From NCBI RefSeq assembly GCF_001854805.1, contig NZ_MBLO01000223.1:54607-110756 (forward strand): 56,150 nucleotides of DNA, read 5' to 3'. The position numbers and the translations under genes are program-made. Below, one piece after another: positions 12,985 to 25,190 of this stretch. Numbering within the stretch: position 1 is the first letter of the stretch; every line of letters begins with the position of its first letter. The notes below the pieces were generated by a model, which saw only the letters and a list, made by a program, of their open reading frames with translations, ran no database searches and was not told where the DNA came from. Source of the stretch: Pseudofrankia coriaricola. GTDB taxonomy: Bacteria; Actinomycetota; Actinomycetes; Frankiales; Frankiaceae.

Positions 12985-14337
12985 CTACCGTATTGGGCGT
13001 ATGGCCGTCCCGAGGGAGATCGGTAGGGTCTCGTAGCCGCGTAGTACGCGGGTCGGGCGACGGCGGGGCGTTCCGGCCAGCGTCAGGTTGGGATACCGCT
13101 CGAACAGGGAACGCAGGCCGATCTCGCCTTCGAGGCGGGCGAGGGCGGCGCCGAGGCAGTAGTGGATGCCACTGGAGAAGGCAAGGTGGTCTCGAGCGTT
13201 TGGCCGTTCGATGTCGAACACGTGTGGGTCGGTGAAAAGGGCGGGGTCCCGGTTGGCGCCCGCGAGCAGGGAGACGACGAGTCTGCCGGCGGGAACCGCC
13301 GTGTCGAGGATGTAAGTGTCGGTACGGGCGACTCGGGCGGTCAGCTGCACGGGTGTCTCGTAGCGCAGGACCTCTTCGACCGCGTTCGGCCATCGGCCTG
13401 GGTCGTCCCGCAGCAGATTCAGCTGCTCGGGATGCTCGAGGAGCAGCTTTGTGCCGTTGCCGAGCAGGTTGACGGTCGTCTCGAAACCGGCCGCGAGCAG
13501 CAGCTGGGCGGTGGCGGTCAGCTCCGTCTCGGTCAGTTGGTCGCCGTCGTCGACGAGTCCGACGAGTCGGCTGAAAATGTCCTCGCCCGGATTGCGCCGC
13601 AACCGTTCGAAATGCCCGCCGAGCCACGCGTTGATGGCCCCCTGCGCGCTCTCGACCTGTCGGAAGGTGCCGTAGGGCAGTCCGACGTCGAGCGTGGCCG
13701 CGGCCGCGGTGCCCCAGGCGAGGAACTGGGCGCGCATGTCCGCGGGAACGCCGAGAACGGCGGCGATGACGGTCACCGGCAGCTGGGCCGCGTAGCAGTC
13801 GACGAGGTCGACGGTGTTCTCACCAGCCATCGCGTCGAGCAGCTCGTCGGCGGTGCGTTCCACTTGGCCGCGGAGCCCTTCGATCGCGCGGGCGGTGAAC
13901 ACCCTCGACACGAGCCGGCGCAGGCGCGTGTGATCTGGAGGGTCGACCGCGAGAAGCGACGGCGGGTCGATCGGTCCGTTCGCCGTGGAGTCCTGGGACA
14001 GCCGGGTCATCAGCCGCAGCGGCAGCGGCAGCCTCGACACGTCGACGGATGCGCCGAAGGCGTCGCTGCGTAGCACGGCCGCCGCGGCCGGGTGACTCGC
14101 GGTCACCAACGCCAAGCGGCCCGAGACGAATGATCCACGGGAGCGGATGTCGTCATAGGCCGGGTAGGGATCCGTCGCCATCGTCGGATGCGCCATCGCC
14201 AGCGTCGCCGTATCGCCACGTCGCTCGGCCCGCCCCAGTACCCAACGTACCGCGCCATGCCGCGCCGCCCAGCGCATTCTGCTTCGGACAGACACCGCCA
14301 CCACCACCGTTGTCGTCACCTCCACGATCACGCCCAT
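12985..14337 (-). CDS. Cytochrome P450
   Basis: 450-residue soluble bacterial P450 that activates O2 with electrons from a ferredoxin; the partner genes are not adjacent. Seen: PSLLAVDPPDHTRLRRLVSRVF (C-helix region), I-helix LLLAAGFETTVNLLGNG with the AGxxTT oxygen-activation motif, ExxR in VEEVLRYETP, and the heme-ligand loop FSSGIHYCLGAALARLEG (Cys394). The start is the ATG at 14337; a 14415 start is possible but adds unrelated residues. The first ~40 residues (MGVIVEVTTTVVVAVSVRSRMRW) are slightly hydrophobic but not a clear anchor. It is divergent from the sulfatase. Confidence 0.9.
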   Translation of the reverse strand: MGVIVEVTTTVVVAVSVRSRMRWAARHGAVRWVLGRAERRGDTATLAMAHPTMATDPYPAYDDIRSRGSFVSGRLALVTASHPAAAAVLRSDAFGASVDVSRLPLPLRLMTRLSQDSTANGPIDPPSLLAVDPPDHTRLRRLVSRVFTARAIEGLRGQVERTADELLDAMAGENTVDLVDCYAAQLPVTVIAAVLGVPADMRAQFLAWGTAAAATLDVGLPYGTFRQVESAQGAINAWLGGHFERLRRNPGEDIFSRLVGLVDDGDQLTETELTATAQLLLAAGFETTVNLLGNGTKLLLEHPEQLNLLRDDPGRWPNAVEEVLRYETPVQLTARVARTDTYILDTAVPAGRLVVSLLAGANRDPALFTDPHVFDIERPNARDHLAFSSGIHYCLGAALARLEGEIGLRSLFERYPNLTLAGTPRRRPTRVLRGYETLPISLGTAIRPIR

Positions 14338-14620
14338 GCGACCAGACCAGCATGTGAGGCTCGTGAGAACCGCGGTGGCGGCCCCGCCCTCGACAGGCAC
14401 CGCCGGCCGGCCCACGCCAGCAAACCCCGCCGGCAGTCCAGGGACTCCGGGCTCCCCGGCCGGCTATCTCGCTTCGCAGATTTCACGCATCCGGATCGCA
14501 CCTCACTCACATGATCATTCGGTGTGGTTGCCGTATGTGGAAGCAGACACCGAACAGTGGTCCAAACAGTGGTCCAACCACAGCGCGTCCCATGTCCAGC
14601 GACCGGGCGGGAGATCGGTG

Positions 14621-16204
14621 ATGGCACGGCACCGCCGTCTAAGCCCGCGGGTTCGTTTCGGTGCCGCGGGGATGGTGGGCTGCCTCGCGCTGGCCGCGAT
14701 GACCGCCGCGGCGTTGACCGGCCAGGCCGAGGAGCCTACGGCGGGCCGGTCGGCCGCGGCCAACGCGGCGGGCACGGCCGAGCAACCGAACTTCGTGCTC
14801 ATCCTCGCCGACGACCTCGACCAGACGACATCTCCCTACTGGGAGGCCATGCCGCAGACCGCCGCCCTGATCAAGGACTCCGGGCTGACCTTCACCGACG
14901 GGTTCGCCCCGACCCCGATCTGCTGCCCGGCCCGCGGCACGATCCTGACCGGGAAGTACGGCCACAACACCGGCGTGCTCACCAACGCCGGCGACGTCGG
15001 CGGCTGGGCGACGTTCGCCCGCAACGGCAACGAGGACCACACGTTCGCCAAGTACCTGCACGACGCCGGATACCGGACCGGCCTGGCCGGCAAGTACATG
15101 AACGGCATCGAGGACGAGCCGACACACATCCCGCCGGGCTGGTCGGAGTGGTACGGCAGCGTCGACAACAACTTCTACACCGGCTACAACTACACGCTGA
15201 ACGAGAACGGCGCACTCGTCCAGTACGGGGGAACGGAAGATCCGGCCAACTACTCCACCGACGTGGTCGCCGCGAAGTCCACCGACTTCATCCGCCACGC
15301 GGCGGCGGATGACGCCCCCTTCTTCTGGTACGCGGCCTCAACAGCGCCCCACCTGCCACTCCCCCCGGCACCGCGACACGCGAACAACCCCTTCACCAAC
15401 GCGACCGCGCCGCGCACACCCAACTACAACGAGACCGACGTCTCCGACAAGCCATGGTGGCTCCAGCAAAGCGCCCAGGAACGCTCCGCCCGAGTCGCGG
15501 CGATCAACGACCCGGACTACCAGGACAGAATGGGCTCGCTGTACGCGCTCGACGAGATGGTGTCAGGCATCGTGCAGACCCTGCAGGACACCGGCGAACT
15601 GGACAACACCTACCTCGTCTTCACCTCTGACAACGGTTACAACCTCGGCTCCCACCGGCTGACCCAGAAGATGGCCCCCTACGAGGAATCCATGCGGATC
15701 CCGCTGGTGGTCGCGGGACCGGGCATCGCCAAGGGCACGGACGACCACATGGTCGCACTCATCGACCTCGCACCGACCTTCCTGGACCTCGCCGGCGTAC
15801 CGATCCCGGCAGACGTCGACGGCCAGTCGCTGGCGCCCCTGCTGCGCGGCGAGACCCCGACGTCCTGGCGCACCGACCTGCTGGGGCAGTACGCCGGGCC
15901 GGGAATCGACGGACAGGACGGGGTCGTCCAGGAACAGGTAGAAAACGTCACTGGCGTATTCCTGGACCTGCCGCCGTGGAGCGCCCTGCGAACCGCAGAC
16001 TATCTCTACGTCCGCTGGTACGACGTCGACCGCTCTCCCCGCATCCACGAAAGGGAGCTCTACAACCTGGCCACCGACCCCTACCAGCTCACCAACCTAC
16101 TGGCGACGCCCCAGGGCAAGGCCGAGAACGCCACACTCGTCACCGAGCTCGACGCGCGCCTCGACACCCTGGCCACCTGCTCCGGAGCATCCTGCCGAAC
16201 CTGA
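14621..16204 (+). CDS. Secreted sulfatase (type I, formylglycine-dependent)
   Basis: 527-residue exported arylsulfatase-fold enzyme that hydrolyses sulfate esters. Seen: N-terminal signal (MARHRRLSPRVRF then a hydrophobic stretch to about residue 34), metal-binding NFVLILADDLDQ, activation motif CCPARGTILTGKYGHNTGV with Cys101-x-Pro-x-Arg105 (Cys101 is the formylglycine site), GLAGKYMNG, STAPHLPLPPA, and FTSDNGYNLGSHRL. The start is the ATG at 14621, preceded in frame by GTG; the open frame extends to 14336 but lacks a signal there. No formylglycine-generating enzyme gene is in the window. It resembles N-acetylglucosamine-6-sulfatase-type sulfatases; the substrate is uncertain. Confidence 0.92.
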   Translation: MARHRRLSPRVRFGAAGMVGCLALAAMTAAALTGQAEEPTAGRSAAANAAGTAEQPNFVLILADDLDQTTSPYWEAMPQTAALIKDSGLTFTDGFAPTPICCPARGTILTGKYGHNTGVLTNAGDVGGWATFARNGNEDHTFAKYLHDAGYRTGLAGKYMNGIEDEPTHIPPGWSEWYGSVDNNFYTGYNYTLNENGALVQYGGTEDPANYSTDVVAAKSTDFIRHAAADDAPFFWYAASTAPHLPLPPAPRHANNPFTNATAPRTPNYNETDVSDKPWWLQQSAQERSARVAAINDPDYQDRMGSLYALDEMVSGIVQTLQDTGELDNTYLVFTSDNGYNLGSHRLTQKMAPYEESMRIPLVVAGPGIAKGTDDHMVALIDLAPTFLDLAGVPIPADVDGQSLAPLLRGETPTSWRTDLLGQYAGPGIDGQDGVVQEQVENVTGVFLDLPPWSALRTADYLYVRWYDVDRSPRIHERELYNLATDPYQLTNLLATPQGKAENATLVTELDARLDTLATCSGASCRT

Positions 16205-16425: not shown

Positions 16426-16674
16426 TCAGCTGGCCTCGTCCCGTCGAGGCCGGTTGGAACGGGGGACGAGGCGGGCGACGTTTTCGGCGATCTCGCGGGC
16501 GAGTTCGGGCAGGACGTCGGCTCGGAGCGGGTATTGCTCCTGACCGGTGATGCGGCGGGTGATCTGAGCAAGTGTGATGACGGTCCCATCATGGCCCATC
16601 ACCGCTGCCTCCATCGCTAGTGGCAGGTCAGCGCCGACTACTCTCGGCGGAGGACCAAGACTCGGTGTGGCCAC
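16426..16674 (-). CDS. Small hypothetical protein, convergent with the sulfatase
   Basis: Up to 82 residues from a GTG at 16674, or 62 from the ATG at 16614 (MEAAVMGHDGTVITLAQITRRITGQEQYPLRADVLPELAREIAENVARLVPR). The central part reads like a compact helical protein and is free of the Arg/Pro/Ala noise typical of mirror frames here. I do not recognise it. No good RBS supports either start. The hairpin at its 3' side supports a real transcript end. It is divergent from dabA. Confidence 0.4.
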   Translation of the reverse strand: MATPSLGPPPRVVGADLPLAMEAAVMGHDGTVITLAQITRRITGQEQYPLRADVLPELAREIAENVARLVPRSNRPRRDEAS

Positions 16675-16756
16675 CGTTGCGGACGATTCGTCGGCGTCCG
16701 GCTAGCGATCCGCGGTCGGGCGGACCCGTCGTGCCCGAAGGCAGGCCGCGGCAGGA

Positions 16757-19700
16757 ATGGAGACGACGACGGAGACGACAGCGACGCCGGCGACCGCAGC
16801 GGGTCCGGCGGTACCGGTCCCCGCCCAGCCGGAGAGCGAATCGCGGACCGATCCGGAGTCCCTGGTCGCCAGCATCCTGGACGACGTCGCGCACCTTCTG
16901 CCCGAGCAGGCACCACTGAGCTTCTTCGTGCATCACAACACGCTGCATGCATTCGAGGATCTCCCCTTCCAGGACGCCGTCGTCCACGCCTCCGAGTTGC
17001 TGGGCACGCAGCCTTTCCAGACCGAGCGGGCGTTCGCCGAGCACCTGCGCAGCGGCCGGATCCGTGAGGACGACGTACGCGCCGTACTTGCCCCCCACGA
17101 CGAGGTTGACGGCGACGTCGAGGTGGTGCCCGGCGGGCCGACCCTGGCCGAGTTCCGGCTTCGGCGTCTCACCACCCTGTTTGAGATCCCGCAGGGCGCC
17201 GGGCTGCGCTGGCTGCTGGAGGACGACGACGCCCGTCGTCGCTGCCACCCCTGGGTGGACGACGCCCGCCGGGCCGCGCTTCGGCGCCAGGCCGGACGGA
17301 TCTTTGAGCCGCACGGCGGCGGCGGCCAGGACACCCCCGGATTCCCCGACACCTCTGACTCCCCTGCGTCCGGCCGTCCGGATAGTCAGGCCGAGGTCCG
17401 CCGCCCCGCGACGGGTAGTCGCGGGGCGCGCCACAACAGCCCCGGCCGCCATGAAGCAGCGCTGAGCGCGTCCCGGCGAGGTGCTGCCCGGACCCCCGGG
17501 CGCGGGGGACGCCCGGGTTGGACAGGAAACGGTCGGGCCCTGTCCGGTCAGCGGACACCCAAGGCTCGGCTCCTGGCCGAGGTCTGGGAGACCCTGGAAC
17601 GCCAACGCCCACCGGCACCCGCCATCGCGGTCCCGGCCCGGCGCCGCGACCAGATTCTGCGCCTGCTGGGTGTGGACACGGATGAGTTCGCGCATCCGGT
17701 GCTGATTCGGTTGTGCTCCGCTTTTCTCGATCAAGGTATCGCGTACTGGCAGATGCCGGAACGCGAGGACGGCCTGCTGGGCGTTTTCCGGCGACTGTTC
17801 GGCCTGCCCGGCGGTCGGCCCGACCCGGTCTGGCGTGGGCTCGATGTAGTTCTTCGCGAGCAGGCGGCGCAGGGATGGACGGCGACGCGGACCGTGGTGT
17901 GGGCGCTTCGTGCGTTGCAGCTACCCGAGTCGGTCTGGCCGGCGACGATCCGGGCGAACCTGCTGTCCCTGCGCGGCTGGGCGGGCATGGTACGCCAGTT
18001 CGAGATTCGCCCCGACCGGGTTCCGGTGCAGCCGTCCCCCGCACGGCTCGTCGACTTCCTCGCCGTGCAACTCCTGCTCAAGGTGTTCGCCACCCGGTAC
18101 GTGCTGACCGAACGCATCGGCCCCGGGGCGGAACCGGCCGATCTCGGTCCCCTTGGCTCGGTCTCGTCGCCCGCAACGTTCGACTCGCCCACGCTGTCGG
18201 ATGTGACCGGCACGCCGGCCACATACGACTCCCCCGCCGCAGTGAGCACTCCCACCGCGCCGAACGCCGCAACGGTGGCAAGCGCCTCGGCCGCTTTCGG
18301 TGCCCAACCCGGGTTCGGAGGATCCAGTAGCGAGCCGCTCGCCATCCAGCCGCGTGCTGTCCACGCCGTCGACGAGGCGAGCATCGACACGGCGTTGGTG
18401 TACGAGGCGTTCGTGCTGGCCCAGCTGGTGGACGTCGATCTTGGTCTGCTCACCGAGGACCGGTGGGCCAGCGCCTGGCTGCGGGCGGTCGCCGATTTCG
18501 ACGAGCAGCGCCGACGCTGGCTCCTGCACCAGGCGTACGAGCGCCGGTATCGGATGATCATCCTGGATGCGCTGTGCGCGCACGGCCGGAACTCCACTCC
18601 GGCCGCCGAGGTCGATGCCCCGCCCACGGACTTCCTCGCGGTCTTCTGTATGGACGAGCGGGAGGAATCGCTGCGTCGGCATCTCGAGGAGCACTGCCCG
18701 GCGGTGCGCACCTACGGTGCCGCCGGCTTCTTCGGTGTGACCATGGCCTACCAGGGCCTGGACGACATCCGGCCGCGAGCGCTGTGCCCGGTCACGACGA
18801 CCCCGCGACATCTCGTCATGGAGCGGGCTGTGGACGAGACCGAACATGCGGCCTACCGCCGGGCGATGCGCCGCTATGGACACGTCGGACACGCCGTGTC
18901 GAGGGCCCGCGGAACCCTCGGCCGCGGTGCGGCCCTGACCGCGCTCGCCGGCCTGGCATCGACCGTGCCGCTCGTCAGCCGGTGTCTGTTCCCGCGGACG
19001 GCCGAACACTGGGCGCGTCACGTCCACCACCGGGTGGCGCCGCGCCCGCGCACCAGACTCGTCCTCGAATGCCCCGACGACGTCGAGCATCTCGAGGACA
19101 CCCCGGCCTCGGCGACGATGTCCGCAACACCGGGCACGGCATCCGGTGCGCTGGTGCCCGGGGTCGGGTCGGCGCCGCTGCGGTTGGGTTACACGGTCGC
19201 GGAGATGACCGACATCGTCGACGCGATGCTGACCAACATCGGCCTGACCGGCACCGCCGCGACAGCCGTCACAGCCGCTCCAGACGCCGTGACGTCACGG
19301 TCGACGACCGAAAGCGCCACGATGCCTGGAGCGACGACCGCTGGGCGGGCGGGTTCACGCGCCGAGCGGCTCGTTCTGATCGTCGGTCACGGATCGTCCA
19401 GCCTGAACAATCCACACGAAGCGGCCCACGACTGCGGTGCCACCGGTGGCGGCCAGGGTGGACCGAACGCCCGGGTGTTCGCCGCGATGGCGAACCACCC
19501 CCGAGTTCGCGACAGTCTCGCCCAGCGGGGCATCCGCCTGGATCCGAGCATCTGGTTCATCGGCGCCTATCACAACACGTGCGACGAGTCGATCGACTAC
19601 TTCGACACCGATCTCGTGCCAGACCGCTTCCGCCCCGCGTTGGACCGGGTCCGGGCGGCCATGGACGCGGCCTGCCGGCTGGACGCGCATGAACGGTGCC

Positions 19701-20554
19701 GGCGGTTCGAGTCCGCGCCCACCGACCTCGACGCGGAACAGGCGTTGGCGCATGTCCAGGAGCACGCCCGGGACATCGGCCAGCCACGGCCGGAGTACGG
19801 GCACGCCACGAACGCCGTCTGTGTGATCGGACGGCGCTCCCGCACCCGCGGGTTGTATCTGGACCGCCGCGCCTTCCTCGTCTCCTACGATCCGACGACG
19901 GACCCGGACGGCGAGGTGCTCACCCGGTTGCTGCTGTCGGCCGGCCCGGTCGGCGCGGGGATCAACCTGGAGTACTACTTCAGCTTCATCGATCCGGTGG
20001 GTTACGGCAGCGGCACGAAGCTGCCCCACAACATCACCGCGCTGGTCGGCGTCATGGACGGGCATGCCTCCGACCTGCGCACCGGGTTGCCCTGGCAGAT
20101 GGTAGAGATCCACGAGCCAATGCGCCTGCTCGTGATCGCCGAGGCCGAGCCGGAACTCCTCTCCCGCCTGCTGCGCGACAATCCGGGACTCGATCGGCTC
20201 GCCTCGGGCGGGTGGATTCAGCTCGCCGCCTGGGATCCGCAGGGACCCGACATCCACCTGTATGTCGACGGCACGTTCCGCCAGCACCACCCGAACGATC
20301 TCACGCTGCCGGTGGTGACCCGTTCGGTGGAGTTCTACGCCGGCCGTCGCGACCATCTCGGATGCGCCGAGGTACTCGGCACACCGCCGCCGGCCGCCGC
20401 GGACGAGACCGCCGCGGCCCGACGGCCGGGCCCAGGCCCGGACCGTGCCCGGTGGCCCACCGCCAGCCCGCCCGGAGCCGGCCTTGCGGTCGACGACCAC
20501 GCGGTCAACGACCACGCTGGCGGTCAGCCGGTCAACCCGCGGCCAGCGGGATGA
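16757..20554 (+). CDS. dabA: DabA: DUF2309 (UPF0753) subunit of a DAB inorganic-carbon accumulation complex
   Basis: 1265 residues, clearly longer than usual DabA proteins (about 800-1000). DabA is a cytoplasmic, zinc-binding, carbonic-anhydrase-like subunit that converts CO2 to bicarbonate when coupled to a membrane DabB. Seen: SFFVHHNTLHAFEDLPFQDAV near residue 55; zinc-ligand pair FCMDERE (Cys631, Asp633); second pair in IVGHGSSSLNNPHEAAHDCGATGGGQGGPNARVFAAMAN (His878, Cys893). The spacings (2 and 15) match the Cys/Asp/His/Cys set of characterised DabA. Three low-complexity insertions of Pro/Ser/Thr/Gly at about 190-265, 455-535 and 775-870 explain the length. ATG at 16757; its stop overlaps the next start (ATGA). 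Confidence 0.93.
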   Translation: METTTETTATPATAAGPAVPVPAQPESESRTDPESLVASILDDVAHLLPEQAPLSFFVHHNTLHAFEDLPFQDAVVHASELLGTQPFQTERAFAEHLRSGRIREDDVRAVLAPHDEVDGDVEVVPGGPTLAEFRLRRLTTLFEIPQGAGLRWLLEDDDARRRCHPWVDDARRAALRRQAGRIFEPHGGGGQDTPGFPDTSDSPASGRPDSQAEVRRPATGSRGARHNSPGRHEAALSASRRGAARTPGRGGRPGWTGNGRALSGQRTPKARLLAEVWETLERQRPPAPAIAVPARRRDQILRLLGVDTDEFAHPVLIRLCSAFLDQGIAYWQMPEREDGLLGVFRRLFGLPGGRPDPVWRGLDVVLREQAAQGWTATRTVVWALRALQLPESVWPATIRANLLSLRGWAGMVRQFEIRPDRVPVQPSPARLVDFLAVQLLLKVFATRYVLTERIGPGAEPADLGPLGSVSSPATFDSPTLSDVTGTPATYDSPAAVSTPTAPNAATVASASAAFGAQPGFGGSSSEPLAIQPRAVHAVDEASIDTALVYEAFVLAQLVDVDLGLLTEDRWASAWLRAVADFDEQRRRWLLHQAYERRYRMIILDALCAHGRNSTPAAEVDAPPTDFLAVFCMDEREESLRRHLEEHCPAVRTYGAAGFFGVTMAYQGLDDIRPRALCPVTTTPRHLVMERAVDETEHAAYRRAMRRYGHVGHAVSRARGTLGRGAALTALAGLASTVPLVSRCLFPRTAEHWARHVHHRVAPRPRTRLVLECPDDVEHLEDTPASATMSATPGTASGALVPGVGSAPLRLGYTVAEMTDIVDAMLTNIGLTGTAATAVTAAPDAVTSRSTTESATMPGATTAGRAGSRAERLVLIVGHGSSSLNNPHEAAHDCGATGGGQGGPNARVFAAMANHPRVRDSLAQRGIRLDPSIWFIGAYHNTCDESIDYFDTDLVPDRFRPALDRVRAAMDAACRLDAHERCRRFESAPTDLDAEQALAHVQEHARDIGQPRPEYGHATNAVCVIGRRSRTRGLYLDRRAFLVSYDPTTDPDGEVLTRLLLSAGPVGAGINLEYYFSFIDPVGYGSGTKLPHNITALVGVMDGHASDLRTGLPWQMVEIHEPMRLLVIAEAEPELLSRLLRDNPGLDRLASGGWIQLAAWDPQGPDIHLYVDGTFRQHHPNDLTLPVVTRSVEFYAGRRDHLGCAEVLGTPPPAAADETAAARRPGPGPDRARWPTASPPGAGLAVDDHAVNDHAGGQPVNPRPAG

Positions 20555-22137
20555 GGCACGCCCTCACGACCAACCTGTCCGGGAGTGCGTATGGCGGGGT
20601 GATGACCGTGTTGCTGCTGGCCCCGGTCGTGCTGCCGGCCGCCGGGGTCGCCGTGCAGGCTGTCGCCTTGTGGTTTGGTCACCACTGGTCGGAACGGGCC
20701 GCGGTCACGATCGTGGCCATCGTGTTCGGCACCGTCGTCCTCGCGACGGCCGCTCTCGGTGTCGCTCTCCTGGTGACCAGGCGCGACATGATCGACGTTC
20801 AGGTCGGTACCTGGTTCGCCACACCCGACCATGCCTGGCGCTGGCACCTGGTGGCCGATCGGCTGTCCATCCCGTTTGCGCTGTCCGCGGCGACGCTGAT
20901 CGGGCTGATCGGCGCGCTGTCGAGCCGGTACCTGCACCGGGAGCCGGGGTTCTTCCGCTTCTACCTGCTGCTCACGCTGTTCGGCACCGGGGTCGAACTG
21001 GTCGTGCTCGCCGGCAGCCTGGCTGTCGTGTTCGTCGGCTGGGAGCTGGTTGGGATGTCCTCAGCCCTGCTGATCGCCTTCTTCCACGAACGGCCTGGAC
21101 CGGTGCGGCACGGGCTGCGCGCGTTCCTGACCTACCGTGCCTGCGATGTCGGGCTGCTGGCCGGGACCGCTCTGCTGGCCGGCACGGCCGGATCGGTGGA
21201 CCTCGTCAGCCCGCCCGCGCCGACGACCGGCTGGCCGGGCCAGGTGGGCTGGATGGACTGGGCGGACTGGGCGCAGGTCCCCGTGCCGGCCTCCGCGGTG
21301 AGCGCGACGATCGTGGCGCTGCTCCTGGTCCTGGCCGTGGTCGGCAAGTCCGCGCTGGTGCCGGCGAGTGGCTGGCTGCCACGGGCGATGGAGGGTCCCA
21401 CCCCGTCCAGCGCGATCTTCTACGGCGCGATCTCGGTGCACCTCGGACCGTACCTACTGCTACGCACCCACGCCCTGTTCGACGCGACACCCGCCGCCCG
21501 GGTGGTCGTCGTCCTGATCGGTCTCGCGACCGCCCTGCACGCCACCGTGGTCGGCCGCGTGCAGTCAGACATCAAAAGCGCCCTGGCCTACGCTTCCATG
21601 ACGCAGGTCGGCCTGATCGTCGCCGAGATCGGTCTGGGCCTGTACCTGCTGGCCATCCCGCACATCCTGGGACATGCGGCGGTGCGCAGCGCGCAGATCC
21701 TGCGCTCACCGAGCCTGCTGCACGACCGGCACCATCTCGAACAGGCGATGGGGCGGACGCTGCCGCACGCCGGCCGGCATCTCGAACGGCTCGTCCCGGC
21801 CCGCTGGCAGCCACGGCTGTATCGGTATGCGCTCGAACGCGGCCATCTGGACGTCTGGCTGCGAGACCTGTGCGCCCCGATCGCGCGGCTGCTGCGGGCC
21901 ATCGACCACGGGCAGCGCCGCGCGGCCGACCGCATCGGCGGCGCGCGCAGCGGCACGACCCCCGACGTGGCCGCCCTCGCCCTGACCCTCGGCAACCCCA
22001 CCATCAGCATCCCCGCCGTCCGCCGCGCGGCGGCGCGCGGCACGGCGGCCGGCAGCCCGGCCAGCGGGAGTGCGCCTGCCCGCGAAGGGGCCGGCCGGAA
22101 TGCGCCAGCGCACGACATCGCTCCCAGGGGGCGATGA
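20551..22137 (+). CDS. dabB: DabB-type proton-conducting membrane subunit (NuoL/MrpA-like)
   Basis: 528-residue polytopic membrane protein of the complex I antiporter-like family, expected to use the cation gradient to drive DabA. Seen: at least ten hydrophobic segments; TM5-type motif FVGWELVGMSS with Glu165; TM7-type VVGKSALVPASGWLPRAMEGPTPSSAIFYGAISVHLGPYLLLR with Lys266; and VQSDIKSALAYASMTQVGLIVAEI with the later conserved Lys. SSAIFYGAISVH is DabB-like rather than NuoL-like. The start is the ATG at 20551, overlapping the dabA stop; longer upstream frames lie inside dabA. A soluble C-terminal region of about 140 residues follows the membrane part. It overlaps the next start by ATGA. Confidence 0.9.
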   Translation: MRHALTTNLSGSAYGGVMTVLLLAPVVLPAAGVAVQAVALWFGHHWSERAAVTIVAIVFGTVVLATAALGVALLVTRRDMIDVQVGTWFATPDHAWRWHLVADRLSIPFALSAATLIGLIGALSSRYLHREPGFFRFYLLLTLFGTGVELVVLAGSLAVVFVGWELVGMSSALLIAFFHERPGPVRHGLRAFLTYRACDVGLLAGTALLAGTAGSVDLVSPPAPTTGWPGQVGWMDWADWAQVPVPASAVSATIVALLLVLAVVGKSALVPASGWLPRAMEGPTPSSAIFYGAISVHLGPYLLLRTHALFDATPAARVVVVLIGLATALHATVVGRVQSDIKSALAYASMTQVGLIVAEIGLGLYLLAIPHILGHAAVRSAQILRSPSLLHDRHHLEQAMGRTLPHAGRHLERLVPARWQPRLYRYALERGHLDVWLRDLCAPIARLLRAIDHGQRRAADRIGGARSGTTPDVAALALTLGNPTISIPAVRRAAARGTAAGSPASGSAPAREGAGRNAPAHDIAPRGR

Positions 22138-23528
22138 TGACGGTGTCGCTAGGCCCGCTGCTGGCCGCCTGCCTCCTGCTGCTCGGCGCGGGCGATCTAG
22201 CCCGCCGACGGCTCGATGCCCGGCGAGCACGGGCGGCGGCAACGGCCTGGACAGGCACAGCGCTCGCGATGATCGTCATCTGTGTCCCGCTGGCCGGACT
22301 CGTCGACGACGCGCTGGCCGGCGTCGGCGGCGAGACGGTGACCACCCTGACGACGGGATGGGCCCGTTGGACGCCGGTGGCCACGGGGCTGGCCGGCCTG
22401 GTCGCGGTCGCGCTGGCGCCGGTGCGCACGCACACCCCGCGCACGTTCATCCACGTCCTAGTGGTGCTCGCCACCGGGCTGGCGGCCACCGCGACCGGCG
22501 AACCGGCCGTGATCGTGGCACTGTGGGCGTTGGCATCCGCCGCGATGTGGCATGACCTGCGCCATCGCCTCGGTTCGCGAGGACCGGCCCGGCTTTTCGC
22601 CCTACACCAAGCGTTCGGTGTCACGCTGGCCGCCCTCGGTGTGATGGTCCTGGCCATCGGCGATGCGTCGGGATGGGCGGGCACGATCGGCGCCGCGGCG
22701 ATCATCGCCGCCGCCACGGCCCGGCTAGGCCTGCTGCCCCTGCACCTGTGGGTCTCCGGGCTGGTGGAATCAGCGCCGATGGGTCTGGTCGTTGTGTTCC
22801 TCACGGGTCCGACCGCGCCGATGCTGCTCCTCGCCGACGGCATACCGGCGCCCGGGACCGGACTGCTCGTGGTCGCAGCGGTGTCCGCCCTGCTCGGCGG
22901 CCTGCTCGGGCTCGTCCAGCCCGACGCCCGGCGCGGGCTGAGCGCCGTCACGGTCAGCGTGTCCGGGATCGTCGCGTGCGGCATCGCGGAGGCGTCACCG
23001 ACCACCGTGGCCGGGGCGATACTGGCCTGGCAGGCCTACGCCATTGGGATGGCCGGCGCCCTGATGGTCCTGTCGACCACCGAGGCACGCCGGGGGCCCA
23101 TCACCCTCACCGGAGCCGGTGGCAGTTTCGCCCGCACCCCGAAACTCGCCGTCGCGTTCCTGCTGCTCGGGCTGGCCGTCGTCGGATTCCCGGCCACCCT
23201 GGGATTCGTCGGCGAGGATCTCCTGATCGAGGGAACCCGGGAATCGTCATCGCTGCTGATGGTGGCGCTCGCCGTCGCGACAGCGGCCAACGGGGCGACG
23301 GTCGTACGCTGGTTCTTCACCGGATTCACCGGACGGCGCGATCACGCCGGCGAGCCCGACCTCACCACACGCGAACAGTGGGCGGTCACCGCCGCCCTCG
23401 CGGTGCTGCTGGTCGGCGGCCTGACGCCGGGCCGGCTGGTACCGGACGGCCCGAACCCGGCCTTCGGGCCGCGATCAGCCGGCAGCTCGGCCCACACAGA
23501 CGCGACCGCCGCTGGACACGCCCAATAG
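22134..23528 (+). CDS. Second NuoM/NuoN-like membrane subunit of the dab operon, degenerate in charged residues
   Basis: 464 residues with about 12 hydrophobic segments; homologous by pattern to antiporter-like subunits (ARLGLLPLHLWVSGLVESAPMGLVVVFLTGP, PATLGFVGEDLLIEGT). The charged residues used for proton transfer in NuoL/M/N are not where expected: the TM5-type WEL is WALAS (Ala132), the TM7-type Lys is Arg197, and the later DxK is DARRG (Arg266/267). ATG at 22134 (a second ATG follows at 22137) with AGGGGG upstream and ATGA overlap with dabB, so it is part of the same operon. Probably a structural or coupling partner of DabB (inference). Confidence 0.82.
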   Translation: MMTVSLGPLLAACLLLLGAGDLARRRLDARRARAAATAWTGTALAMIVICVPLAGLVDDALAGVGGETVTTLTTGWARWTPVATGLAGLVAVALAPVRTHTPRTFIHVLVVLATGLAATATGEPAVIVALWALASAAMWHDLRHRLGSRGPARLFALHQAFGVTLAALGVMVLAIGDASGWAGTIGAAAIIAAATARLGLLPLHLWVSGLVESAPMGLVVVFLTGPTAPMLLLADGIPAPGTGLLVVAAVSALLGGLLGLVQPDARRGLSAVTVSVSGIVACGIAEASPTTVAGAILAWQAYAIGMAGALMVLSTTEARRGPITLTGAGGSFARTPKLAVAFLLLGLAVVGFPATLGFVGEDLLIEGTRESSSLLMVALAVATAANGATVVRWFFTGFTGRRDHAGEPDLTTREQWAVTAALAVLLVGGLTPGRLVPDGPNPAFGPRSAGSSAHTDATAAGHAQ

Positions 23529-23954
23529 ACGCGCCGACTCCACGTGCGCAGCGGGTGCAATCGGCCGGACTCACCGGTCGACATGACCAGTCGACGCGGT
23601 CAGTCAACCCGGCCAGTCGGCCACGCTGGCTCGTCCTGCCCGCGCTCGACCACGTCCCGATGCTGCCACCGGCAAGGTCGACACCCCTGCCCTGGCGCGG
23701 CTGCTCGCCCTGCAAGGCCAGCCGGTGGCCGGCTCGAAGGGCGCGGGTCAGGCCGACGGCGGCGCCAGGACCTGACGGCGGCCGGGAGGCCGCCGCGGGC
23801 GCTCGGGCCTGGGGCACCCCAGGGCTTGAGGCGCCGACCGCCGATAACGTACCTTCCGCACATCCACGAAAGAAGACATCTACATCTTTAAGAGGGCACG
23901 TCCTCGGAGGCTCCACGTAAGCCCGCCTCCGCCGGCGCGAGGTTGGGGAGAAGC
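23529..23954. other. Intergenic stretch after the dab operon, with a hairpin
   Basis: No recognised gene. A perfect 7-bp hairpin GGCGGCC-GGGA-GGCCGCC at 23777-23794 could end dab transcription. A short open frame ending near 23775 (PALARLLALQGQPVAGSKGAGQ) has no start or recognisable family. The AT-richer stretch 23845-23895 probably holds the promoter of the following P450. Confidence 0.4.
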
Positions 23955-25190
23955 ATGACAGCGGCGAGCACCGCCACCGCCCCGAAGATCGACCTGCTGG
24001 ACGCGGCGTCGTTCGCGAACGGCCAGCCCCACGACCAGTTCACCTGGCTGCGCGAGCACGACCCGGTGCACCGCCACGACGAGCCCGACGGCCCCGGGTT
24101 CTGGGCGGTCACCCGCTACGAGGACGTCCGACACGTCGGGCGCGACCCGGGCACGTTCTCCAACTCGCCGTCCGTGCAGATCGTCGACGTCCACGGCGAC
24201 GGCGCCTCCATGGGCGACCACCAGATGATGCTGATGATGGACCCCCCGCGGCACAGCAAGTACCGCAAGCTCGTCAGCCCCGACTTCGTCCCCAGGTCGG
24301 TACGGCCACTCATCCACCGGGTCGACGCCCTCGCCCGCCAGATCGTCGACGCGGTCATCGAACGCGGCGAATGCGACCTGGTCGACGACCTCGCCGGCGA
24401 GATGCCCTCGCTCGTCATCGCCGACCTGCTCGGCATGCCACTGGAAGACGGCCGCGAACTCTACAAACTGACCGAGCAGATGCACGCGGTCCCCGACACC
24501 GTGCCGGAGGGCACCCAGCTCAACGCGGCGCTCAAGATGTTCACCTACGCGAGCGAGCTGCAGGCGGCCAAGCGCAGGAACCCGGGCGACGACCTGTCGA
24601 GCCGGCTGCTGGCCGCCGAGGTCGAGGGCCACCGCCTCGACGAGATGGACTTCAACCTCTTCTTCATGCTCCTCATCGACGCCGGCGGCGACACCACCCG
24701 CCAACTCGTCGGCGGCGGCCTGCACGCACTGTTCGAGCGCCCGGACCAGCGGGCCGCGCTGATGGCTGACCTCGACGGCCGGCTCGACACGGCGATCGAG
24801 GAGATGCTGCGCTGGGTCAGCCCGGTCGTCTACATGCGCCGGACCGTCACGACGGACACCGAGCTGCGCGGCCGGCAGATCGGCGCCGGCGACAAGGTCG
24901 TCATGTACTACGGCTCGGCCAACCGCGACGAGCGGGTGTTCGCGAACCCACAGACGTTCGATATCACCCGCTCCCCGAACGACCACATCGCCTTCGGCAG
25001 TGGCGGCCCGCACTTCTGCCTCGGCTCACACCTCGCCCGCGTCGAGATCACCGCGCTGCTGCGCGAGATCCTCACCCGGATGCCCGACATCGAGCCCGCA
25101 GGCCCCACCACCTGGCTGCAGTCGAACTTCATCTCCGGCCCCCGCCACCTACCAGTCCGTTTCACCCCCGGCCCGAAGCTCGGCTCCTGA
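23955..25190 (+). CDS. Cytochrome P450 (steroid/terpene-type subgroup likely)
   Basis: 411-residue soluble P450. Seen: GFWAVTRYEDVRHVGRDPGTFSN, MMLMMDPPRHSKYRKLVSPDFVPR, I-helix LLIDAGGDTTRQLVGGG (AGxxTT type), EEMLRWVSPVVYMRRT (ExxR), and heme loop FGSGGPHFCLGSHLAR with Cys355. The MDPPxHxxxRxLVxxxF and RRT patterns resemble actinobacterial CYP125/CYP142-like enzymes, so a sterol or terpenoid substrate is possible but not shown. ATG at 23955 with GGGGAG four bases upstream (23945-23950). It ends at a strong bidirectional hairpin. Reductase and ferredoxin genes are not adjacent. Confidence 0.91.
   Translation: MTAASTATAPKIDLLDAASFANGQPHDQFTWLREHDPVHRHDEPDGPGFWAVTRYEDVRHVGRDPGTFSNSPSVQIVDVHGDGASMGDHQMMLMMDPPRHSKYRKLVSPDFVPRSVRPLIHRVDALARQIVDAVIERGECDLVDDLAGEMPSLVIADLLGMPLEDGRELYKLTEQMHAVPDTVPEGTQLNAALKMFTYASELQAAKRRNPGDDLSSRLLAAEVEGHRLDEMDFNLFFMLLIDAGGDTTRQLVGGGLHALFERPDQRAALMADLDGRLDTAIEEMLRWVSPVVYMRRTVTTDTELRGRQIGAGDKVVMYYGSANRDERVFANPQTFDITRSPNDHIAFGSGGPHFCLGSHLARVEITALLREILTRMPDIEPAGPTTWLQSNFISGPRHLPVRFTPGPKLGS

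Follow-up and report, generated by a model that had tools for sequence, protein, structure and literature searches.

DabA–DabB systems of heterotrophs, such as MpsAB of Staphylococcus aureus and YbcC/NdhF of Bacillus subtilis, contain to our knowledge no NuoM-type second antiporter-like subunit. This work concerns a three-gene operon, dabA–dabB–X, in a stretch of 56,150 nucleotides from another heterotroph, Pseudofrankia coriaricola (assembly GCF_001854805.1, contig NZ_MBLO01000223.1, positions 54,607–110,756, forward strand), hereafter the window, whose own numbering is used for all positions; X denotes the third gene and its product. The structure of the DAB2 system of Halothiobacillus neapolitanus (DabA2–DabB2, 9rd0), reported in 2026, indicates that coupling rests on a finger glutamate of DabA and on a lone DabB with 15 transmembrane (TM) helices (PMC13144422). 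A further arrangement, named clade C in the 2017 COGNAT paper, comprises ybcC–nuoL–nuoM operons in which dabA lies upstream of a nuoL homolog, with added NuoM genes (COG1008) and SulP (COG0659) nearby (PMC5700660).

The window locus shares with DAB2 a zinc site like that of beta-carbonic anhydrases (beta-CAs), all five tested catalytic residues and an adjacent NuoL-like DabB; PF10070, the zinc ligands with the Asp–Arg dyad and the NuoL-like DabB adjoining dabA place it in the DAB family. Unlike DAB2 as described in PMC13144422, it has dabA first and a second membrane subunit, its DabA lacks the finger glutamate (Glu444) and carries His for Leu658 and Glu for Ser356, and its DabB lacks TM12–15 and has a TM5 Glu where DabB2 has Ile151. 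With COGNAT clade C, it shares the position of dabA upstream of a nuoL homolog, an added NuoM-like gene, signature residues of DabA and DabB and the grouping in trees. However, the DabB of clade C loci has at least about 750 residues, and as many as five antiporter-like genes occur there when DabB is included, whereas the window has a DabB without TM12–15 and one degenerate NuoM-like subunit. The NuoL–NuoM pair of complex I offers the same fold, the interface ion pair in the NuoL-like and the TM12 Glu in the NuoM-like subunit, but in the window DabA replaces the redox arm and both membrane subunits have lost part of the path.

We propose that the three products of the operon form a DAB-like complex, a reduced clade C DAB, in which DabB and X would form a composite ion path under a beta-CA-like DabA; we give this reading a probability of about 0.45, a little short of even. 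The earlier note on this DNA had contrasted the extra antiporter-like gene with characterised DAB pumps, which have a single DabB, but NuoM genes beside dabA–nuoL are already in print (PMC5700660), and the window locus is a variant of that arrangement. No paper on the Frankiaceae form was found in the literature searched, most subscription papers being outside its reach. As judged from the sequences compared, what is new is that clade C and this family differ from the DAB2 type at fixed sites of DabA and DabB, and that the family shows complementary losses, of TM12–15 in DabB and, in X, of the TM5 Glu and the TM7 and TM8 lysines.

Conservation of the operon

The order sample consisted of 35 genomes, all of one family. 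Orthologs of X occur in nine of them, and DabA in the same nine; the other 26 gave no match to X or just matches at the level of Nuo subunits (about 25–30% identity). Across the class, X was detected at E ≤ 1e-25 in nine of 393 genomes, all belonging to this family. The order dabA–dabB–X is intact in eight loci, the window and seven relatives, and in each of the seven the stop codon of dabB and a start codon of X overlap by four bases. These results bear out the earlier note, which had described a three-gene operon with ATGA joints (its coordinates and both overlaps are confirmed here); a lack of conserved co-occurrence of the third gene with dabAB, which the note had set as a refuting outcome, is not seen. 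In the ninth genome (G002), from another genus of the family, the locus is a decayed remnant (L034, 3100–5250), in which pieces of dabA adjoin the C-terminal half of X and dabB is missing.

The ratio of non-synonymous to synonymous substitution rates (dN/dS) against the nearest relative (G031) is 0.29 for dabA, 0.43 for dabB and 0.31 for X, and that of X ranges from 0.24 to 0.39 among six other loci. In a blastn comparison of the window with the G031 locus (L033), similarity is confined, with gaps, to 16599–23530 and ends two bases past the stop codon of X, although L033 extends about 6 kb further upstream and 5.4 kb further downstream; no other locus has flanks in common with the window. Since the four-base overlap recurs in 7/7 loci, dN/dS is low and similarity ends with the operon, the arrangement is not a matter of chance. 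A scan of genome_contigs with two short peptide patterns, which distant relatives may escape and which may pass over the window's own records, returned six relatives of X, namely Parafrankia soli (L041), Parafrankia sp. EUN1f (L042), Frankia sp. EI5c (L043), Parafrankia colletiae (L044) and two weak ones (L045 and L046, E 1e-5 and 1e-4). The window is of one family with the four named records.

DabA lacks the finger glutamate and carries a beta-CA-type residue

DabA matches PF10070 with 746 bits (cut-off 25), and among solved structures DabA2 of 9rd0 alone (E 1.2e-57) is related to it at E ≤ 0.001. Its sites, numbered after the DAB2 structure (PMC13144422), were compared in 42 homologs, comprising 8 of the family (the window and its seven relatives), 11 of clade C and 23 canonical ones; duplicate rows with open ends (L091, L098) and DabA open reading frames (ORFs) of 600 residues or fewer (L143, L144, L145) were left out. 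The zinc ligands C351, H524 and C539 and the D353–R355 dyad are kept in all 42. At position 444, the site of the finger glutamate that DAB2 cannot do without, the family has Ala throughout (8/8), clade C has His (3), Gln (7) or Asp (1), and canonical DabAs have Glu in 22 of 23 and Asp in one. Two further sites divide the rows completely, with His at position 658 and Glu at position 356 in the family (8/8) and clade C (11/11), and Leu and Ser, respectively, in 23/23 canonical rows. At the 658 site, beta-CAs are reported to carry Gln or His, and Leu658 to be strictly conserved among 150 DabA2 homologs (PMC13144422); as clade C has His there, it was apparently outside that sample.

Complementary losses in DabB and X

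DabB belongs to PF00361 (E 6.3e-37), its top NCBIfam models being those of NuoL, and it keeps Glu165, Arg196, Asp199 and Lys266. Its residues were tabulated in 42 DAB rows (8 family, 13 clade C, 21 canonical), without L091, whose DabB is cut by a contig end, L096 and L144, where no DabB was seen, and the remnant L034. The TM5 Glu (Glu165), TM6 Arg (Arg196) and TM7 Lys (Lys266) are found in all 21 DabBs that have extra NuoM-like genes at their locus; among canonical DabBs, the TM5 Glu occurs in none of 21, and the Arg and Lys in one (L126). Family and clade C DabBs hence retain the Glu/Arg/Lys interface residues of complex I. That canonical DabBs, having no such neighbour, lost the ion pair, while those with a candidate neighbour keep it, suggests that DabB and X, with DabA, may be arranged as a NuoL–NuoM-like pair.

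Two sites set the family apart, namely Tyr291 and Arg379, which are present in all eight of its DabBs and are His and Lys in the 34 other DAB rows. They align to His254 and Lys342 of NuoL. The NuoL residues concerned bear their usual names (H254, K305, H334, H338, K342). By the complex I correspondence, the two sites would equal H260 and K347 of DabB2, where alanine changes lower activity (PMC13144422). In all, seven of the nine tabulated path and ion-pair residues are retained in DabB.

The AlphaFold model of DabB matches E. coli NuoL across 375 alignment columns (root-mean-square deviation 3.0) and shows 11 long TM helices followed by one lone helix with a predicted local distance difference test score (pLDDT) below 50. 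After TM11, no 19-residue segment attaining a mean hydropathy of 1.3 is found in seven of the eight family DabBs; a hydrophobic tail segment in the eighth (L038) was considered as a TM helix and rejected, being only a Val-Ala-Glu repeat. The family DabB is thus without TM helices 12–15, and a C-terminal motif beyond this gap is kept. In six Parafrankia-type loci, DabB has a long, variable, low-complexity tail and totals 757–888 residues. Each of the three clade C DabBs checked has four more hydrophobic segments in the TM12–15 region and one at the very end.

X matches PF00361 from profile position 76 onward only (E 1.2e-16). NuoM and NuoN are among its best relatives, and its top model, NDH_I_M (E 9.9e-17), is matched far under that model's cut-off. 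The TM5 Glu, the TM7 Lys (now Arg196 of X) and the TM8 Lys are lost in 7/7 X rows aligned with NuoM. The TM12 Glu, Glu360, is kept in the same 7/7 rows and is invariant in the eight-row X alignment. Invariant positions of X concentrate between the TM11 loop and TM13 (55/99, against 15/54 in TM7–8); in the NuoM-like M1 and M2 of clade C (eight sequences each), TM7–8 is the most conserved block (32/54 and 25/54), and the stretch from the TM11 loop to TM13 has 41/99 and 28/99. X is not merely a detached TM12–15 of DabB, as its alignment with NuoM runs from TM7 past TM13 and it has itself about 13–14 helices. From these alignments, X appears to lack residues needed to pump alone and DabB the TM12 half, and jointly they would hold most of one set.

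Several statements of the earlier note can be judged here. Glu165 and Lys266 are indeed present in DabB, but the TM5 Glu is no hallmark of DabBs, being absent from all 21 canonical ones and replaced by Ile151 in DabB2 (PMC13144422). Of the second NuoM/N-like subunit said to accompany DabB, the NuoM-like character of X stands, but DabB itself is shortened on its C-terminal side. An altered ion coupling, also suggested there, fits the residue changes in DabA, DabB and X.

Clade C and canonical loci in other families

DabA was found in 25 of 345 genomes of a class sample and in 23 of 396 of a phylum sample, of which 17 regions (all DabA genomes outside the family) and 20 regions (G595, at a contig end, being left out), respectively, were compared. 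In 24 of the 37 regions, no second antiporter gene was detected within the stretch examined, and where DabB could be scored (21 of the 24), its gene either precedes dabA or is in one frame with it. Thirteen loci from other actinobacterial families have dabA first (L089, L127–L131, L133, L134, L138–L140, L143 and L145); a long DabB, the NuoM-like M1 and M2 and a gene of N type come after it, and most of the loci have another NuoM-like gene upstream. All five antiporter-like genes are seen in six of the 13, the rest being truncated at a contig end, at the limit of the stretch examined or by a gap. From their gene order and content, these 13 loci would correspond to COGNAT clade C (PMC5700660). 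The DabA tree unites the family and clade C (19/19 members, support 1.0); the DabB tree joins the family to clade C with a support of 0.918, clade C DabBs alone having 0.994.

The six five-gene clusters (L128, L129, L130, L133, L138, L139) are tightly packed with one DabA and resemble a complex-I-like membrane arm with no redox subunits in the stretch examined; the first gene of L139 reaches the contig end. The long C-terminal tail of clade C DabBs ends in a hydrophobic segment (checked in L128, L130 and L089), which recalls the lateral helix of NuoL. An apparent DabB–NuoM fusion of 1153 residues in L134 proved to be a scaffold gap filled with N. Eleven loci (L084, L088, L090, L091, L092, L093, L094, L095, L097, L098, L126) carry DabB and DabA in a single ORF of about 1,100–1,500 residues without N, those of L091 and L098 being truncated at contig ends; these are probably natural DabB–DabA fusions, which would point to a 1:1 association.

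A proposed composite ion path and its alternatives

In the proposed complex, DabA would lie on the cytoplasmic face and interconvert CO2 and bicarbonate at its beta-CA-like zinc site. TM4–11 of DabB would provide the cytoplasmic half of the ion path, and X would sit beside DabB as NuoM sits beside NuoL in complex I, its TM12 Glu360 serving as a terminal acid next to the DabB ion pair Glu165–Arg196/Asp199–Lys266. X may in this way take the place both of TM12–15 of DAB2 and of the finger glutamate of DabA. Flow of the presumed ion, in the presumed direction, through the shared DabB–X path would drive or gate CO2 hydration, and the bicarbonate produced would go to carboxylases of the heterotroph.

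Several points weigh against this reading. The contact between X and DabB is a putative one, and the single-chain models are weak: that of DabB has a mean pLDDT of 53.7, with values below 50 after residue 386, and that of X (mean 56.5) shows an antiporter-like fold only. In the tree, X joins NuoM-type subunits on a very long branch with a support of only 0.785. In two of the eight family DabAs (L035, L036), the finger has a Glu at another place, a few residues past position 444. The His at 658 need not matter, because changes of Leu658 neither made nor broke DAB2 activity, those other than L658Q leaving activity in vivo (PMC13144422). Proton conduction by DabB may be poor, because the presumed equivalents of H260 and K347 are Tyr291 and Arg379. 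Clade C DabBs keep the TM12–15 segments (3/3 checked) despite their NuoM-like neighbours, and X is therefore not necessarily a stand-in for these helices. Finally, a beta-CA encoded in the same genome makes the need for this pump less clear.

The same complex might have another geometry, with X at the C-terminal face of DabB, replacing TM12–15 and cradling the DabA finger, and Glu360 standing in for Glu444. This we consider rather unlikely: it suits a DabB lacking the helices by which DAB2 holds its finger (PMC13144422) and a finger region that stays hydrophobic in 8/8 family rows, without Glu at 444, but leaves unexplained both the TM5-Glu/Arg ion pair retained on the opposite face and the lack of Glu444 in clade C, where the TM12–15 segments are kept (3/3 checked).

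Less probable again, yet a real rival in view of Tyr291 and Arg379, is a loss of ion coupling, which would make DabA a membrane-anchored beta-CA-like enzyme with DabB and X as its scaffold. Charged path residues are gone from both membrane proteins, and all eight DabAs have His at the site where beta-CAs have Gln or His (PMC13144422). Against this, DabB retains seven of nine path and ion-pair residues, X retains its TM12 Glu, and none of the three genes reaches a dN/dS of 0.45 against the nearest relative. Moreover, L658Q by itself failed to turn DAB2 into a free carbonic anhydrase, showing no such activity in vitro (PMC13144422). A last alternative, in which X is a functionless remnant of a larger clade C membrane arm, is very improbable: its degenerate motifs, long branch and patchy occurrence (9/35 genomes) and the decay of the whole locus in G002 would fit, but X is intact in all eight loci retaining dabAB, evolves with a low dN/dS and is strongly conserved around TM12.

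Clade C and the reduced family form may be carbonic anhydrases of a second energy-coupled class, an idea that we advance tentatively and hold to be doubtful on balance. On this view, DabA carries a beta-CA-type His and coupling would run through an antiporter array resembling that of complex I rather than through a finger glutamate; in the family, this array would have shrunk to two complementary half-antiporters forming one ion path. A clade with a DAB2-like zinc site, without the finger Glu and with complex-I-type neighbours would be a natural experiment on the coupling of ion flow to CO2 hydration. With its two half-degenerate subunits, the family form is small enough for expression and dissection, and would show whether antiporter half-channels of complex I can sit on separate proteins.

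Physiology

The earlier note had imagined a variant CO2-concentrating system. RuBisCO (PF00016) was found in none of the 35 family genomes, while a control search recovered it from 5 out of 14 known genomes, one of them Synechococcus, and a beta-CA (PF00484, the only carbonic anhydrase class searched) is present in 34 of 35, the window genome among them. A CO2-concentrating role for RuBisCO is therefore not likely (other fixation pathways were not sought). By analogy with MpsAB, a supply of bicarbonate for carboxylases would be the likely use. Sodium has been put forward as the ion used by MpsAB (cited in PMC13144422).

Locus layout

The three ORFs lie back to back on the forward strand without gaps (Table 1), in an 11.2-Mb genome (G000) with a single DabA copy.

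Table 1. Features of the dabA–dabB–X operon in window numbering.
Feature	Position	Strand	Description
Upstream leader	16599..16756	+	Common with nearest relative; opens the conserved block (blastn against L033)
dabA	16757..20554	+	1265 aa; beta-carbonic-anhydrase-like subunit; PF10070, E 5.8e-224
ATGA overlap dabA/dabB	20551..20554	+	Seen in the sequence
dabB	20551..22137	+	528 aa; NuoL-like TM1–11 and C-terminal helix; TM12–15 missing
ATGA overlap dabB/X	22134..22137	+	Seen in the sequence; 4-base overlap possible in 7/7 intact relatives
Third gene X	22137..23528 (start 22134 or 22137)	+	463 aa; NuoM-like

Promoter and terminator scans gave matches no better than those in shuffled sequences, and no sigma-70-like promoter was found in the leader. 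A −1 shift in a G run of the window would join the frames of DabB and X; as Parafrankia-type junctions have no comparable run, plain four-base coupling is the simpler account, and a frameshift fusion was rejected.

P450 genes flank the operon on both sides (12985–14415 on the reverse and 23943–25190 on the forward strand), and a sulfatase (14336–16204), an APH-like and an SDR gene complete the five flanking genes scanned, none of these five being a SulP (COG0659) gene; these flanks are not common to the loci of relatives. The operon is present in just two of eight genomes of its genus, with different flanks in the window and the nearest relative, and we note as a side observation that 16599–23530 may be a mobile or often-lost cassette.

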